A stretch of 38,429 nt of DNA. Origin: Bacteroidota bacterium (GTDB lineage: Bacteria > Bacteroidota > Ignavibacteria > Ignavibacteriales > Melioribacteraceae). Below, one piece after another: positions 745 to 12,585 of this stretch. The translations under genes and the position numbers were made by a program. Positions within the stretch are counted from its first letter, which is position 1. Each line of letters opens with the position of its first letter. Location: contig JAHJTX010000256.1 of the NCBI GenBank assembly GCA_018829545.1, forward strand, positions 1-38,429, in the 5' to 3' direction. Under the pieces are notes generated by a model that was not told the DNA's origin, ran no database searches, and saw only the letters and a list, made by a program, of their open reading frames with translations.

Positions 745-2007
745 ATGAAACGAATATTTTTGTTTTTATTCATTATTTCTGCGAATGTATTCGCACAAAC
801 AAATTTGTACGTTGCGAATTTTGAGCAATTGAACTTTAACGATGGGCAACCTCTTCCCGCCGAGAGGCATTTTATAATTCAAGGATACACAGACCACGAT
901 ATTGATATCGTAGAAATAGATATTCTTGAAAGCGGTGTTGAAAAGCCGGATTTGCTGTACACGGAAAGATGGGAAAGGCTAGCCGAAAGCAATGCTATGG
1001 TATATAAAATACCGGTAAAATTTAATTTATTCTACGACGCTAAGTATGATATTTTAGCAAAATTTTACAAAAAAGTGAACGATAAAAGCAAGACCGAATT
1101 ACAATCCGCTTTAGAGAAACATTTCGATACTTTCATTGACCAAGCGTTGGTGATTGAAGAGGGAAAGGTTAAATCAACTTCAAAAGGCAAGAATATTGAA
1201 GCTGATCTTAACTCAATACTCAACTCAACATTCAAGAATTACACCACAAGAAAAAATGATGGCTTCGAAAAATTCTCGGATCGTATTCCAAGTCTTGTTG
1301 CCCGGATGACAAACAAAAATTTGGAAATTGATGATTACGAGGCACAAAAGGATATTGATAGATTTAAAACTATTGTGAAGCAAGAAGCGAAGAAAAACTT
1401 TGAAGGCGATCTATTCTTATTATTCGATAAAAAAATGATTGTGGGCTATCCCACAGTTAAAAGAGACGCTTTTGTGAAATTAGTCGATTCTACAATAGTC
1501 GAAAAAAAATCATTTCTTCTAAATATTGGTTACGGCTCAGTAAGCGACGGCTCCTCATATCAAACAAATCCATTTGTGGGTTTTTCAATTCCAATTGCGA
1601 ATGACCGTCACAATTACAGTTTGTGGAGTAAATTATCAGTTTCGTTCGGAATTTTTACATCGGATTTTAAAAACAGCTTCGGAGAAACACTAACCGGACC
1701 AATAGTCAAAAAACCGATATACGCCGGTGTTGGATATTCCGTGTTCGATTATTTTAGAATACATGCTGGAACTTGTATCCTTCAAAACCAACCAAAGACG
1801 GCTGGTAATTTTAACATGAAGAATACAGCGTTCTACATGCACTTCGGATTGAGTTTAGACTTTAACATTTTGGCTGGAATAGGTTCTCAGAGTTTGAAGA
1901 AACATTCGTATGATTCCGATAGGACTTATGATATTGGTAAATGCACATTTGAAAATATTTTCAAGTGTGATTCAACTTGTGAGAATGATGAAAAGGTAAA
2001 TGAGTAA
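745..2007 (+). CDS. Secreted protein of unknown function with a probable C-terminal beta-barrel-like region
   Basis: I do not recognise this 420-residue protein. The ATG at 745 is preceded by a good ribosome binding site (AGGAG at 733-737). Residues 1-18 form a signal peptide (MKRIFLFLFIISANVFAQ), so it is exported. Residues 20-100 look beta-rich. Residues 105-235 are charged and mostly helical. From about residue 250 the sequence alternates glycines and aromatics (NIGYGSVSDGSS, NPFVGFSIPIAN, YAGVGYSVFDYFRIHAG, FGLSLDFNILAGIG) in the manner of an outer-membrane beta-sheet protein. The C-terminus has three Cys (C408, C413, C417 by rough count) in an acidic tail, unusual for an exported barrel. 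It stands alone between a gene remnant and the aqpZ repeats. Confidence 0.75.
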   Translation: MKRIFLFLFIISANVFAQTNLYVANFEQLNFNDGQPLPAERHFIIQGYTDHDIDIVEIDILESGVEKPDLLYTERWERLAESNAMVYKIPVKFNLFYDAKYDILAKFYKKVNDKSKTELQSALEKHFDTFIDQALVIEEGKVKSTSKGKNIEADLNSILNSTFKNYTTRKNDGFEKFSDRIPSLVARMTNKNLEIDDYEAQKDIDRFKTIVKQEAKKNFEGDLFLLFDKKMIVGYPTVKRDAFVKLVDSTIVEKKSFLLNIGYGSVSDGSSYQTNPFVGFSIPIANDRHNYSLWSKLSVSFGIFTSDFKNSFGETLTGPIVKKPIYAGVGYSVFDYFRIHAGTCILQNQPKTAGNFNMKNTAFYMHFGLSLDFNILAGIGSQSLKKHSYDSDRTYDIGKCTFENIFKCDSTCENDEKVNE

Positions 2008-2379: not shown

Positions 2380-3066
2380 ATGAAAAAACTTATTGCAGAA
2401 TTTATCGGAACTTTGTGGTTAGTCTTGGGTGGCTGTGGTAGCGCTGTTCTTGCTGCGGCATATCCGGAATTAGGAATTGGATTTGCCGGCGTTGCGCTTG
2501 CTTTTGGATTAACCGTCTTAACAATGGCTTACGCAATAGGGCATATTTCAGGATGCCATCTTAATCCGGCAGTTTCAATTGGTCTTTGGGTTGGAGGCAG
2601 GTTCGATAAAAAGGAACTGCTACCGTATATAGGCGCGCAGGTGTTGGGCGGAATTGCCGGCGCAGGAATATTGTTCCTAATTGTAAGCGGAAAAGCAGGA
2701 TTTGAACTCGGCGGTTTTGCAGCTAACGGATATGGAGAACATTCACCCGGCGGATATAATATGCTTGCCGCGTTGGTATCCGAAATTGTAATGACCTTTA
2801 TGTTTTTGGTAATTATTTTAGGTGCGACTCATCCAAAAGCCCCAAAAGGCTTTGCAGGCATTGCAATTGGATTAGGATTGACACTGATACATTTAATAAG
2901 TATTCCCGTTACAAATACATCAGTAAATCCTGCTAGAAGCACAAGCCAAGCATTATTTGTTGGAGATTGGGCTTTGGGTCAACTATGGCTGTTCTGGGTC
3001 GCGCCGATTGTAGGCGCAATTTTAGCTGGTATTGTTTATAAAGTGATTTCACCGGAAAAAGAATAA
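2380..3066 (+). CDS. aqpZ: Aquaporin Z, water channel
   Basis: A 228-residue member of the major intrinsic protein family, the normal length for AqpZ. Six membrane segments and two half-helices are visible, with the two NPA motifs in HLNPAVSIG (about residue 62) and SVNPARS (about residue 184). The selectivity-filter residues expected of a water-specific aquaporin are there: His in LIHLISIP and Arg just after the second NPA. The sequence follows E. coli AqpZ closely through [17 protein letters not shown] and [11 protein letters not shown]. Start ATG has AAGGAG at 2370-2375. It lets water cross the inner membrane passively during osmotic shifts. It stands alone, with at least four copies of a palindromic repeat upstream and two downstream; together with the close match to proteobacterial AqpZ this makes lateral acquisition plausible (inference). 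Confidence 0.96.
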
Positions 3067-3076
3067 ATAAATAAGT

Positions 3077-3124
3077 AACCTTCTAGGTTTAAGCTCCGGT
3101 TAAGTCCACAAACCTCGAAGGTTT
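3077..3124. repeat. Two copies of the AACCT(T)CGAGGTT palindrome family downstream of aqpZ
   Basis: AACCTTCTAGGTT at 3077-3089 and AAACCTCGAAGGTTT at 3110-3124 lie between the convergent ends of aqpZ and mfd. They match the copies upstream of aqpZ, so the gene is bracketed. They could fold into short hairpins at the 3' ends of both transcripts, but neither is followed by a clear T run. Confidence 0.7.
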
Positions 3125-3156
3125 CATCAAGAGGTTTTTATTAAGAATGAACTCAA

Positions 3157-6100
3157 TTATAATAAAACAAGTTCACTCAAATCCTTGCAAAAATTGATGA
3201 TGTATTTAAGCGATTCATCCGGAGAAGAATATTTATTCAGCATTTCCAATCTCATAACGTCCTTCTGCTGTTTGAATTGAACCGTCCTTGAATGTTTGTC
3301 AAGAATAAACTGCATTAAAAGTGAAAACTTATTTTGATAAAATTCTGTTCTATCTGCGTTGGGAAGAACAATTGAAATATGATTTCGTTGAATTGCCACT
3401 TTTTCCAAGAGCGCTAGGGAAGCGTAATATCTTAATTCTGCGGTATGAATTAGTCGTTCAACAATTATTGGAAGTCTGCCGAATCTGTCTATCATTTCGT
3501 CGCGTACTTCATTGATTTCTTCCACTTTAATAACAGAGAATAGATCAGTATAAAAGCTAAGTCTATCTGATTGATCCGGCATAAAATCTTTTGGGATTCC
3601 AATCTCAAAGAAAGTGTCAATTTTTGGTTCGCTACGATCAATGTGTTTCGGTAAATCCTTGAACTCACTCTTAAATTCGCTTTGCCGTAATTCTTCAACT
3701 GCTTCGTCGAGCAGCTTGATGTACATATCAAATCCAACGGTATCAATAGCGCCGCTTTGCTCTGTGCCGAGTAAATTTCCGGCGCCGCGAATTTCCAAAT
3801 CACGCATAGATAAATTAAAACCCTCGCCCAAATCGGTATATTCTTCAATTGCTTGAAGCCTCCGCACAGCTTTTTTTGTGATAGTATTTAGTGAAGGCAC
3901 CAGCAGATAAGCGTATGCCTGTCTGTCTGATCTACCGACTCTTCCACGCAACTGATGAAGTTCGGCTAAGCCAAATCTATCTGCGCGGTTGATGATAATT
4001 GTGTTCACATTTGGAATGTCCAATCCGGATTCAATAATTTTTGTCGCCATTAGAACGTGATACTTCTTGCTCAAAAAATCATGAATAACATTTTCAAGTT
4101 GAGTTGGTTTCATCTGCCCATGAGCAACGCCGATATTAATTTCCGGAATATATTTATTAACATAAGCGGCAAGTTTATCAATCGATTGAACTCTATCATG
4201 AACAAAATAAATTTGACCATTTCGTTTAATCTCATTTAAAATCCATTCGCGGATTTTTAGAATATCAAATTTATCTACTTTAGTATAAATGGGTTGACGG
4301 TTCGGCGGGGGAGTTGCAATGATAGATAAATCCCGCGCCCCCAGCAATGACATATTCAACGTTCGCGGAATTGGAGTAGCCGTTAGTGTAAGCGTATCAA
4401 TATGCTCTCGCATTTTCCGCAGCTTCTCTTTTGCCATCACGCCGAACCGGTGCTCTTCGTCAATAATCAATAAACCGAGGTCCTTAAATTCAACGTCCTT
4501 CGATAGCAAACGGTGAGTCCCGATTACAATATCTACCGAGCCCGATTTAAGCTGCTTTAATGTTTCAGTCTGCTTTGCTTTTGTTGAAAATCTGGAAAGC
4601 GATGAAACATTAACCGGGAACTGAACCAGCCGGTCTTTGAATGTATTCCAATGCTGTTCTGCAAGAATTGTTGTTGGCACCAACAACCCAACTTGCTTTC
4701 CGTCGTTAACCGCTTTGAATGCCGCTCTAACTGCAATTTCCGTTTTACCGAACCCAACGTCACCGCAAACCAATCTGTCCATAGGATTATTGGATTCCAT
4801 ATCACCTTTAACTTCTTCTGTTACTTTTGCTTGATCGGGTGTATCCTCATAAAAGAAAGACGCTTCCAATTCTTTCTGCCAAATCGAATCAGGGCTGAAC
4901 GCTGTTCCATCCGATGACTTTCTTTTTGCGTACAATTTTATTAATTCTCGCGCTGCATCAATGATTTTGGATTTAACTTTTTTCTTCGTCGATTTCCATT
5001 GGCTGCTGCCAAGAACAGAGAGCCTAGGCTTTAACTCCTCATTTGAGGAAAACTTTTTTATCAGTGAAAGGTAATTCAAATTTACATACACAACTCCGCC
5101 TTCTGCATAGAGGATTTTTATACTTTCTTGTTCAATCTCTCCAATCTTGATTGTCTCCAGCCCGGCGTACTGTCCGATTCCAAAATTTGAATGAACAATA
5201 AAATCACCCCTTTTTATAGAAGCGAAATCCTTTGAGCGTGACTTTTTGTACTTGGATTTACTCTGAATTCTCGACCGGTAGGGTTTGTTGAATATTTCAT
5301 AATCGGAAAGAACAAGAAGCTTATCCTCCTTCGATAAAAATCCCTTGTGGATTGGCAGAATAACAATTCTAATTTTGCCCCCTTCAATAAGATTCCTCAA
5401 TTCATCCTTAAATTCTGAAAACAAATCGAGAAGTCTTCGTCCTTGCAAATCATTTTCGGCGCTGATTAGAACCGTGAAATCCTTTTTGCAATAATCGATG
5501 AGATTATTAAACAGCAATTCGAAGTTTGAATTTATTATTGGCGGACTAGCAAGTTTAATTTCGAATCTATCATTGTCGATTCCTAATTCACTTTCAATCA
5601 GCCATTCAGCTTTATGTGAAAATAAAACCTGCTCAGGATCTGCATCATCGTTTAAATGATTTACGTGCGGATCTTCTGCTGATTCACTCTCATTTTCCTG
5701 ATCGCCAATTTCTTTGATTAATTCGATGTCCTCAAAAGGAAGCTCGGATTCAATTTCCTTTTTCGCAGGTTTGAACAAATCATTAATGCCGCCTTCAGTG
5801 GCGAGGACGAATGGATTATCGAGATAGTTAAAAATAGAAGATTTGCTCTGTTCATCTCCGTTCGAAAGAACCGAAGCAAGTGAAACGGATTCAACTCTTG
5901 AAGACGATCTTTGATTTTCATGATCAAAATATCTTATCGATTCGAGAAAATCCCCATCGAATTCCAACCTGCACGGTTGTCTTTCACTAAAAGACCAAAA
6001 ATCTATTATCGATCCACGCACGGCAAACTCGCCGGGGCTATCAACATAATTATCGCGCTGGTAATTCAGCAAATTCAAATATTCAATCAGATTGTCGTAA

Positions 6101-10632: not shown

Positions 10633-10651
10633 GATTATGGTGTGCATAATC
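10633..10651. other. Hairpin between convergent pyk and the methyltransferase gene
   Basis: GATTATG at 10633-10639 pairs with CATAATC at 10645-10651 around a five-base loop. It sits in the 72-base gap between two convergent genes and may act as a weak bidirectional terminator. Neither side has a proper T run, so the role is uncertain. Confidence 0.35.
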
Positions 10652-10666
10652 GCTGTACTAATTTTA

Positions 10667-11728
10667 TTAATTTTCGCCATCATCCAAATCAAAAAGTGTT
10701 TTTGATTTCTGAAAATTATTAAGATTGATTTTTTTGCCCGAATTGATAGAATTATAAATTTCTGTCAACTTATTTGTACTAAAATTACTATCAATAAATC
10801 TCAGGGACGATGCGCTTACATAATCAATTCGATTTTCAATACTAATCCAATTTCTATTCAGTTTTTCAGCAACAAATCCAGTGGTATTTGAACCTGCAAA
10901 AATATCGACCACAAGATCATTGGGATGGGTTAACATTTTTATGAAAAAAGCAGGTAATTTTTCAGGAAAGCGGGCAGGATGTCCTTTAACTCCGATTTCT
11001 TTACAGCGGCGTAAATAAAGGCTATTTGATTCGGAATTGGGAATTTGTAAAAGATTTGATGGTATTGCCCCTCCATTATCATTCCCAAAATTGGAGCCGA
11101 TGTTGTGTCCAGAAGGTCTTTCTTTTGGAGTATAATATTTGGCTGGGTCTTCAATCAATTTCTTCATTCGTTCGCTGTATGGAACGAGCACATTTCTAAT
11201 ATCAGATTTTGGATACTCTGATTTTGATAACCACCAGATAGTATTAACAGAGTCCTTCACTCTGATTTTTCTTTTGTTGACCCACTCAATAGGACTGGGA
11301 AGTTTTGAAGGATTGTACCAAAAAAATTCTTCGGCAAGGTGAAACCCAATATCGTCGCATAAATGTATTAGAAGTCGAAAATTATATAAGCTTCGAATTG
11401 GGATGCCTTTTTTGTATGCACCACCTAGGTCAATTACCAAACTACCATCATCGGTAAGTTTACGATTTATAATTTTTGCAAATTCCAATAACCATGCTAT
11501 ATACTGATCCTGCTCTTTATTGCCGTATTCTTTCTTTCTTTGTAATGCAAATGGAGGGCTGGTAATTACGAGATTTATACTTTGATCTGGGAACCTAGAT
11601 AGAACTGTTAAAGAATCATTGCAAATAGCCAGGCCCAGCCTAGTTCGATAACTATAACCGTTCTCAAAAAGGATTCTATTTATATTTCCAATGTTACTCA
11701 TAGTCTGTAGACTCATAGTATGCAACAT
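10667..11728 (-). CDS. PvuII-type DNA cytosine-N4 methyltransferase
   Basis: A beta-class DNA methyltransferase of the PvuII (CAGCTG) type. The catalytic motif IV is TSPPFAL, as in m4C enzymes, and it is followed by QRKKEYGN, characteristic of M.PvuII. Motif I is VDIFAGSNTTGFVAE near the C-terminus, the beta-class order. Long blocks resemble M.PvuII from memory (NPSKLPSPIEWVN, RKIRVKDSVN, RMKKLIEDPAKYYTPK, RPSGHNIGSNF, GHPARFPEKLP). It would protect CAGCTG sites by methylating the inner C. The start is uncertain: ATG at 11728, 11716 or 11701 are all possible, and two of these lie in the C-box. A TTG at 11767 would overlap the controller gene and is unlikely. Divergent from the controller and endonuclease genes, the PvuII layout. 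No frameshift is seen, so methylation is probably active. Confidence 0.93.
   Translation of the reverse strand: MLHTMSLQTMSNIGNINRILFENGYSYRTRLGLAICNDSLTVLSRFPDQSINLVITSPPFALQRKKEYGNKEQDQYIAWLLEFAKIINRKLTDDGSLVIDLGGAYKKGIPIRSLYNFRLLIHLCDDIGFHLAEEFFWYNPSKLPSPIEWVNKRKIRVKDSVNTIWWLSKSEYPKSDIRNVLVPYSERMKKLIEDPAKYYTPKERPSGHNIGSNFGNDNGGAIPSNLLQIPNSESNSLYLRRCKEIGVKGHPARFPEKLPAFFIKMLTHPNDLVVDIFAGSNTTGFVAEKLNRNWISIENRIDYVSASSLRFIDSNFSTNKLTEIYNSINSGKKINLNNFQKSKTLFDLDDGEN
11693..11720. promoter_or_regulatory. C-box operator of the PvuII-type controller protein
   Basis: Two near-identical symmetric sites, ACTCATAGT at 11696-11704 and GACTCATAGT at 11710-11719, are spaced exactly as O_L and O_R of known C-protein operators (compare the ACTTATAGT-type sites of the Esp1396I and PvuII groups, from memory). 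The centre between them, AGTC-TGTA-GACT, is itself symmetric. In these systems one controller dimer on O_L activates the C and R genes, and a second on O_R shuts them down. A likely -10, CATAAT, lies at 11726-11731, just before the controller ATG at 11743. Confidence 0.82.
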
Positions 11729-11742
11729 AATACATTTATGGT
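11726..11742 (+). promoter_or_regulatory. Probable -10 element and leaderless start of the controller-endonuclease transcript
   Basis: CATAAT at 11726-11731 is one base from the TATAAT consensus and lies 6 bases past the C-box. A start site 6-8 bases further on would fall at about 11738, only a few bases ahead of the controller ATG at 11743. No ribosome binding site precedes that ATG. Both facts suggest a leaderless or near-leaderless message, as known for several C genes. Confidence 0.5.
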
Positions 11743-11964
11743 ATGAAAAATACAAATAAAAAATCAAGAATCATATTAGCTGTCAATATGAGAAAATTCA
11801 GACAAAAGTTGGGCTTATCTCAGGAAGAACTAGCTTATAATTCCGGATTGCATAGAACTTATATCAGCTCGGTTGAAAGAGCAGAACGGAATATTTCGAT
11901 AGATGCCCTTGAGAAAATAGCGACCGCATTTAGTATCTCGTTGAATCAATTACTGGAGGAATAA
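11743..11964 (+). CDS. Controller (C) protein of the PvuII-type system, HTH_XRE
   Basis: A 73-residue protein made of a single XRE/lambda-repressor-type helix-turn-helix domain. The helix pair is visible in [26 protein letters not shown] (split: [11 protein letters not shown] and [15 protein letters not shown]), the arrangement typical of restriction-modification C proteins, with the Arg-Thr-Tyr recognition helix and the [13 protein letters not shown] dimerisation helix. It binds the C-box at 11693-11720 and times endonuclease expression after the methyltransferase has acted. Its end contains the ribosome binding site GGAGGA (11955-11960) of the next gene, one base after its stop, so the two are co-expressed. 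Confidence 0.93.
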
Positions 11965-11965
11965 T

Positions 11966-12226
11966 ATGAAACCCACAAAAGATATTAGAAAATTAAAAAA
12001 ATTATTTCCAAACATTCTTGAATATCAAAAACTAGCCGATAAGCACGGAATTAATGATATTTTCCAGGATAACGGGGGTAAACTTTTACAAGTACTTTTA
12101 ATTACTGGACTCAAGGTCATTCCCGGGCGAGAAGGTAATGATGCCAAAGACGAGAGCGGAAAAGAATTTGAATTAAAATCAGTCAATATAAAACTCACAA
12201 AAAGTTTTTCTACACAAATCATATGA
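11966..12226 (+). CDS. PvuII-type restriction endonuclease, N-terminal (catalytic) part, frameshifted
   Basis: This ORF aligns to residues 1-85 or so of R.PvuII (157 residues, recalled sequence), including [20 protein letters not shown] (dimer and minor-groove region) and the catalytic PD-ExK-type triad: Asp59 in GREGND, Glu69 and Lys71 in FELKSVNI, equivalent to D58, E68 and K70. After SFST the frame reads QII and stops at TGA (12224-12226), where R.PvuII continues HHHMNP. The continuation lies in the next ORF, one frame back. The best explanation is a one-base deletion around 12214-12219 (a CAAAAT to CAAAT change fits best). The stop overlaps the next ATG as ATGA, so both halves could still be made. 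It may be a pseudogene, a functional split enzyme, or an assembly error. Confidence 0.88.
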
Positions 12227-12465
12227 ATTCAACTATTATTAAAAAATATAGAAAGGTCGACTGGATTTTTGCAGTGTACGAAGGGATTGAATTAAAAAGA
12301 ATATATCGGCTAACTCCGTTGCTACTTAAACCATATTACGATAAGTGGGAAAAGAAATGGAAGGATGATGGGGATAAAGATATTAACAATCCCAAAATAC
12401 CTGTAAAATTTGTGGAAATGAAAGGGACATTAATTTATAACCACGAAAACGATCGCTTATTTTAG
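12223..12465 (+). CDS. PvuII-type restriction endonuclease, C-terminal (recognition) part
   Basis: An 80-residue ORF that starts at the ATG corresponding to Met86 of R.PvuII and runs to its natural end. It matches [32 protein letters not shown] and [12 protein letters not shown] of the C-terminal half, including the Asn pair (equivalent to N140/N141) that reads the CAGCTG site. The C-terminus is about 8 residues longer than R.PvuII (NHENDRLF). It has no own ribosome binding site, but its ATG overlaps the TGA of the upstream half, so re-initiation is possible. The preceding codons in its frame, AAT CAT, would restore an N-H-M-N link like the H-H-M-N of R.PvuII. Confidence 0.85.
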
Positions 12466-12585
12466 AGTCAGTTGAAAATTATTAGCGGATAGTTGCAACT
12501 GTTTTTGTTGAGTACTTAATTTTCCTCTTTTATGGGAGCATCTACCAGAGACTTAAATGAATTTAATTAATATCCAAAGTTTAGA

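Follow-up and report, generated by a model that had tools for sequence, protein, structure and literature searches.

A PvuII-type restriction-modification cassette with a split, probably recently inactivated endonuclease gene in a Melioribacteraceae genome

What does it mean when a restriction endonuclease gene is found as two overlapping reading frames beside its methyltransferase and controller genes? An earlier note on such a PvuII-like locus, in a 38,429-nt stretch of DNA (the window) from a 4.1-Mb draft genome of the Melioribacteraceae (408 contigs, estimated 98.6% complete), named three options: a very recent inactivation with the methyltransferase kept, a functional two-chain enzyme made by re-initiation, or an assembly error in an A run. 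The first is the best supported of the three. With a probability of about 0.7, this is a PvuII-type cassette in which a small complex mutation, in the codons for His83, His84 and His85, has recently inactivated the endonuclease gene, while the methyltransferase and the controller were kept. Such an event is of a known kind, an instance of the ordinary decay that restriction systems undergo.

The cassette lies at about 10640–12470, between pyk and an amrS-like radical-SAM gene, and is chromosomal; its GC content is 0.34, that of the window 0.37. A complete relative (G049) has lon, pyk and amrS arranged likewise, and its pyk and amrS matches lie only about 230 bases apart. Because the relative keeps this gene order with an empty site, the cassette is an insertion. 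Among the 79 genomes of a same-family list, which contains no same-genus genome, only the present genome and G026 carried PF09225 (Endonuc-PvuII), and a search of the present genome found the PvuII-like gene in a single copy. The window's flanking genes were not found beside the other fetched PvuII systems, except for a weak Lon match in L017. As a separate observation, in L100 of the present genome (G000:C11, about 4.8–6.8 kb) a large protein with repeated C-terminal secretion-type domains has in-frame stops, near the contig end.

The layout is that of a C-regulated PvuII-type system, with a divergent methyltransferase gene, a C gene upstream of the endonuclease (R) gene, and a C-box between. 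The M.PvuII-type N4-cytosine DNA methyltransferase is encoded on the minus strand at 10667–11728 (353 aa from the ATG at 11728; PF01555, E = 5.9e–44), and the C.PvuII-type controller protein of 73 aa on the plus strand at 11743–11964 (HTH_3, E = 9.1e–15). Two intact PvuII systems served for close comparison: L046, from a Bacteroidetes MAG, whose R.PvuII matches that of same-family G026 (L004) without a difference along its length, and L045, from an Ignavibacteriaceae MAG, whose R.PvuII is likewise identical to that of same-order G457 (L088). The methyltransferase is 78–80% identical to those of L046 and L045 over nearly its full length, and the C protein 70–75% identical to theirs. Neither reading frame is interrupted, and each gene aligns with its relatives from one end to the other, so that the earlier description of them as undamaged stands. 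The C-box region ACTCATAGTCTGTAGACTCATAGTATGC (11695–11725) overlaps the start of the methyltransferase ORF and hardly differs from the corresponding position in L046, L045, L089 and the Proteus PvuII system (L005). Judged by its sequence, the locus is a C-regulated PvuII-type (CAGCTG) Type IIP cassette; an intact system of this type would be expected to cleave CAGCTG and to methylate it at the N4 of cytosine.

R.PvuII is normally a single ORF of about 157 aa; here 86 and 80 aa are encoded in two frames of the plus strand. The N-terminal piece (11966–12226) comprises residues 1–82 plus QII, and matches PF09225 at profile positions 2–79 (E = 1.5e–28); the C-terminal piece (12223–12465) runs from Met86 and matches positions 83–155 of the 155 (E = 4.2e–26). 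The R.PvuII chains in the PDB are matched at residues 5–83 and 86–157, respectively, and all of these matches are far beyond chance. Joined, the pieces are 69% identical to R.PvuII. They are thus the two parts of one R.PvuII homologue, as had been proposed from the letters alone, with the second starting at Met86; the proposed division of active-site and Asn residues also proved correct, Asp34, Asp58, Glu68 and Lys70 all lying in the first piece and Asn140 and Asn141 in the second. We take Asp58, Glu68 and Lys70 to be the catalytic residues of R.PvuII, and Asp34, Asn140 and Asn141 to be its recognition residues. The role of Asp34 is supported by the title of PDB entry 3pvi.

The lesion itself occupies 12215–12222 on the plus strand. 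The window reads TTT TCT ACA, then CAAATCAT, then ATG AAT TCA, where the closest intact relatives read TTT TCN ACN, then CAY CAY CAY, then ATG AAY CCN. Because the 8 nt of CAAATCAT face the 9 nt of the His83-His84-His85 codons, the lesion combines a net −1 indel with one substitution or more; just beyond it Pro88, a proline in 74 of the 84 aligned rows, has become Ser. The first chain ends in ...Phe-Ser-Thr-Gln-Ile-Ile, the second begins at Met86, and the histidine triad is absent from both. The central histidine is invariant in 77 distinct intact homologues (exceptions number one at His85 and five at His83); it hydrogen-bonds a guanine of the recognition site and is the presumed m4C sensor (PMC4705667). 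The closest homologue, that of L046, was modelled with AlphaFold2 (pLDDT 93.7; best PDB match PvuII, TM 0.91), and in the model the triad sits in a loop between a short strand (80–82) and a helix (89–95). On this model the break takes out the recognition loop and cuts no core strand. One extra base would reopen the frame but, by the codons, would not by itself restore the invariant triad.

Other origins of the break were considered and rejected. A cloning scar was suggested by the NdeI-EcoRI-like string CATATGAATTC at the break, but its CATATG is inherited from the His-Met codons of the relatives, and one transition gives the rest. The break is not a chimeric junction, both halves being about 80% identical to the same relatives, nor a phase-variable tract, there being no repeat beyond ordinary A5 and T5 runs.

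The two pieces share an ATGA at 12223–12226, through which the second chain of a working enzyme could be made by termination-reinitiation, each half-site then being bound by one N-terminal and one C-terminal piece. Survival of the catalytic and Asn recognition residues, conservation of both halves and the position of the split in a loop all suit such an enzyme. The overlap, however, is of a kind to be expected without it: codon 86 is ATG with an overlapping +1-frame TGA in 49 of 79 intact homologues, a pair that is common in intact genes because Met-Asn is encoded by ATG AAY. Where intact genes have this stop, their +1 frame is open for nine codons or more upstream of it; whatever the net −1 change in that stretch, translation would then terminate at this TGA, with this ATG left in place. 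The ATGA is, on these codon comparisons, inherited from Met86-Asn87 and not a matter of design; an overlap of this sort between gene pieces need not signal a designed split.

Three further points weigh against two working chains. Neither would contain the triad with its exceptionless His84. No Shine-Dalgarno-like motif precedes 12223 (the R gene's own start has GGAGG), a weak point, since such a motif was seen in just about a third of the 28 window genes surveyed. And there is no second example: R.PvuII scans, which took up a search that the earlier note had proposed, yielded 72 loci from 84,980 species genomes, as well as loci in 11 viral contigs, 11 plasmids, 5 phages and genomes of the same order, and none of these is split at this place. 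A functional two-chain R.PvuII is for these reasons very improbable. Slightly more improbable again is a natural two-chain PvuII that dispenses with the His83–85 loop, perhaps with altered stringency or m4C tolerance, in a genome nearly purged of CAGCTG.

A full-length enzyme might instead arise by −1 frameshifting, either programmed or transcriptional, which would limit the R.PvuII level. The second frame does lie −1 of the first, and A5 and T5 runs are present at 12199–12209, but direct reading of the sequence found no in-phase X XXY YYZ heptamer, and the downstream RNA structure is not unusual (z = 0.43). L089 and the intact L022 share this A5-G-T5 stretch, which is read there without any change of frame, and the slipped product would read ...Thr-Asn-His-Met..., still lacking His84. 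We give this explanation the least credence of all.

A more serious competitor is an assembly or consensus error in the MAG, in which case R.PvuII would be a normal single ORF and the break would have come from low coverage or a mixture of strains. The genome is a draft in many contigs, both halves are otherwise fully conserved, and the CAGCTG avoidance described below fits a currently active system. Moreover, in L048 and L061 the methyltransferase is frameshifted and R is open; this should be lethal, and the frameshifts are probably sequencing errors in those low-coverage or draft records. That such errors occur in this class of data also counts against a recent inactivation here. The stretch differs from its relatives by an indel plus a substitution, however, which would take more than one wrong base, and its longest homopolymer is three bases. 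When the assembly was compared with G049 proteins, no frameshift was found in 125,328 coding bases, 26,020 of them in the window, and in-frame stops occurred only in one 6.9-kb contig. From the absence of frameshifts in 125,328 bases, their rate is put at no more than about 1 in 42 kb (95%), or a chance of about 1% for a gene as long as that of R.PvuII. The earlier suggestion of a miscounted A run is thus weakened, the lesion exceeding one missing base; an artefact of some kind is unlikely, though it keeps an appreciable share of our belief.

If the gene was inactivated, it was probably inactivated lately. Outside the His codons, the window protein does not depart from its homologues at any column conserved at 90% or more, and, measured against the two closest homologues, each half has a dN of about 0.1 and a saturated dS; together these argue for selection until recently. 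About 50 columns are conserved at 95% or more, and long neutrality should have left changes among them; there are none. Since no strongly conserved residue has changed outside the lesion, the break appears young, and we estimate from the alignment that neutral divergence since then would be below about 3%. The earlier statement that neither half bears other damage accordingly holds for the columns at 90% or more, and has to be amended only for the Pro88 to Ser change near the break. Two aspects of this pattern are awkward for a recent inactivation. The otherwise perfect conservation of both halves also fits an artefact or a working enzyme, and an indel, a change at His84 and Pro88Ser within six codons are unusual for the random decay of a young pseudogene.

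The genome carries what may be a footprint of the enzyme. In 529 kb of genome stretches, on which the expectation-based counts and the frameshift rate rest, CAGCTG was the most avoided of the 24 four-GC palindromes, at 11 found against 71.7 expected (0.15), the ratio for G049 being 0.82; the 38-kb window had none against 4.2 expected. Genome-wide there are 130 sites, or 31.7 per Mb, the lowest density of 80 genomes (median 105); the CAGCTG/CAGCTT ratio, the other measure used in the 80-genome comparison, is again the lowest at 0.096. Site avoidance tracks residence time, and Type II systems that have long been resident typically show it (PMC4687349); the lowest CAGCTG density suggests that the system was long active in the past. 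It is not specific proof of PvuII activity, given the low CAGCTG density of the relatives G046 and G072, which are without PvuII; conversely, G026 has an intact PvuII system without CAGCTG avoidance. We also observed that GAGCTC (0.35) and CTCGAG (0.41) are low in this genome, which may reflect other past or present restriction systems.

Loss of R in a PvuII-type system has precedent among the scanned loci. Five homologous loci had other, independent R breaks: a stop at codon 100 in L089 (same-order genome G475; 1474–1974, minus strand), a stop near codon 63 in L064, frameshifts near 143 in L042 and near 124 in L071, and general decay in L076. In L089, L064 and L042 the methyltransferase and C genes are open over the aligned length beside the broken R. 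From these independent breaks, a broken R with M retained is a recurrent fate of PvuII-type systems. The L076 locus (3001–3457, Candidatus Thiosymbion) is a case of its own, a fully decayed PvuII system with multiple stops and frameshifts in both R and M.

The window likewise has a disrupted R beside an intact methyltransferase gene, the pattern of modification-only decay, and recent inactivation of the endonuclease would account for it as follows. After insertion of the cassette between pyk and the amrS-like gene, a net −1 indel plus a substitution in the recognition-loop codons would have inactivated R. Ribosomes would then stop at the TGA within the ancestral ATG-AAT codons of Met86 and Asn87, and the fragment so released would have its catalytic residues but neither the recognition histidines nor the C-terminal half. 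A product started at Met86 would be without the histidines too. Restriction would thereby be lost and, with the methyltransferase and controller intact, a modification-only system left, in which methylation presumably continues. The locus would then be a C-regulated Type IIP system caught just after the probable loss of its endonuclease, while the footprint of restriction, CAGCTG avoidance, is still in the genome. As such it could offer a datable example of how orphan methyltransferases originate, and of how long site avoidance outlives the enzyme.

Among known systems, the Proteus PvuII system (R.PvuII, C.PvuII and M.PvuII; plasmid record NC_002632) shares with the window the divergent M and C-R genes, the C-box sequence and an endonuclease that is 69% identical from end to end, with catalytic and Asn recognition residues in common. 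It differs in that the window's R is split by a frameshift at His83–85 and its system is chromosomal. Also, the window's C and R genes are one base apart, whereas pvuIIC and pvuIIR overlap in Proteus (PMC2997769). The system of same-family G026 is closer (endonuclease 81% and methyltransferase 78% identical, with the same gene order and C-box), but its R is intact with HHHM, its flanking genes are others, and its genome, at 144 CAGCTG per Mb, does not avoid the site. In same-order G475, as in the window, R is inactivated while the methyltransferase and C genes are open over their length; there, however, R was broken at another place and by a stop codon, not an indel. Heterodimeric restriction endonucleases such as BspD6I/BstNBI, in which two polypeptides jointly supply the functions of the enzyme, do exist (PMC4081073). 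Their chains, however, are stable, separately evolved proteins, whereas the window's two pieces are broken parts of one compact domain that has lost its recognition loop.
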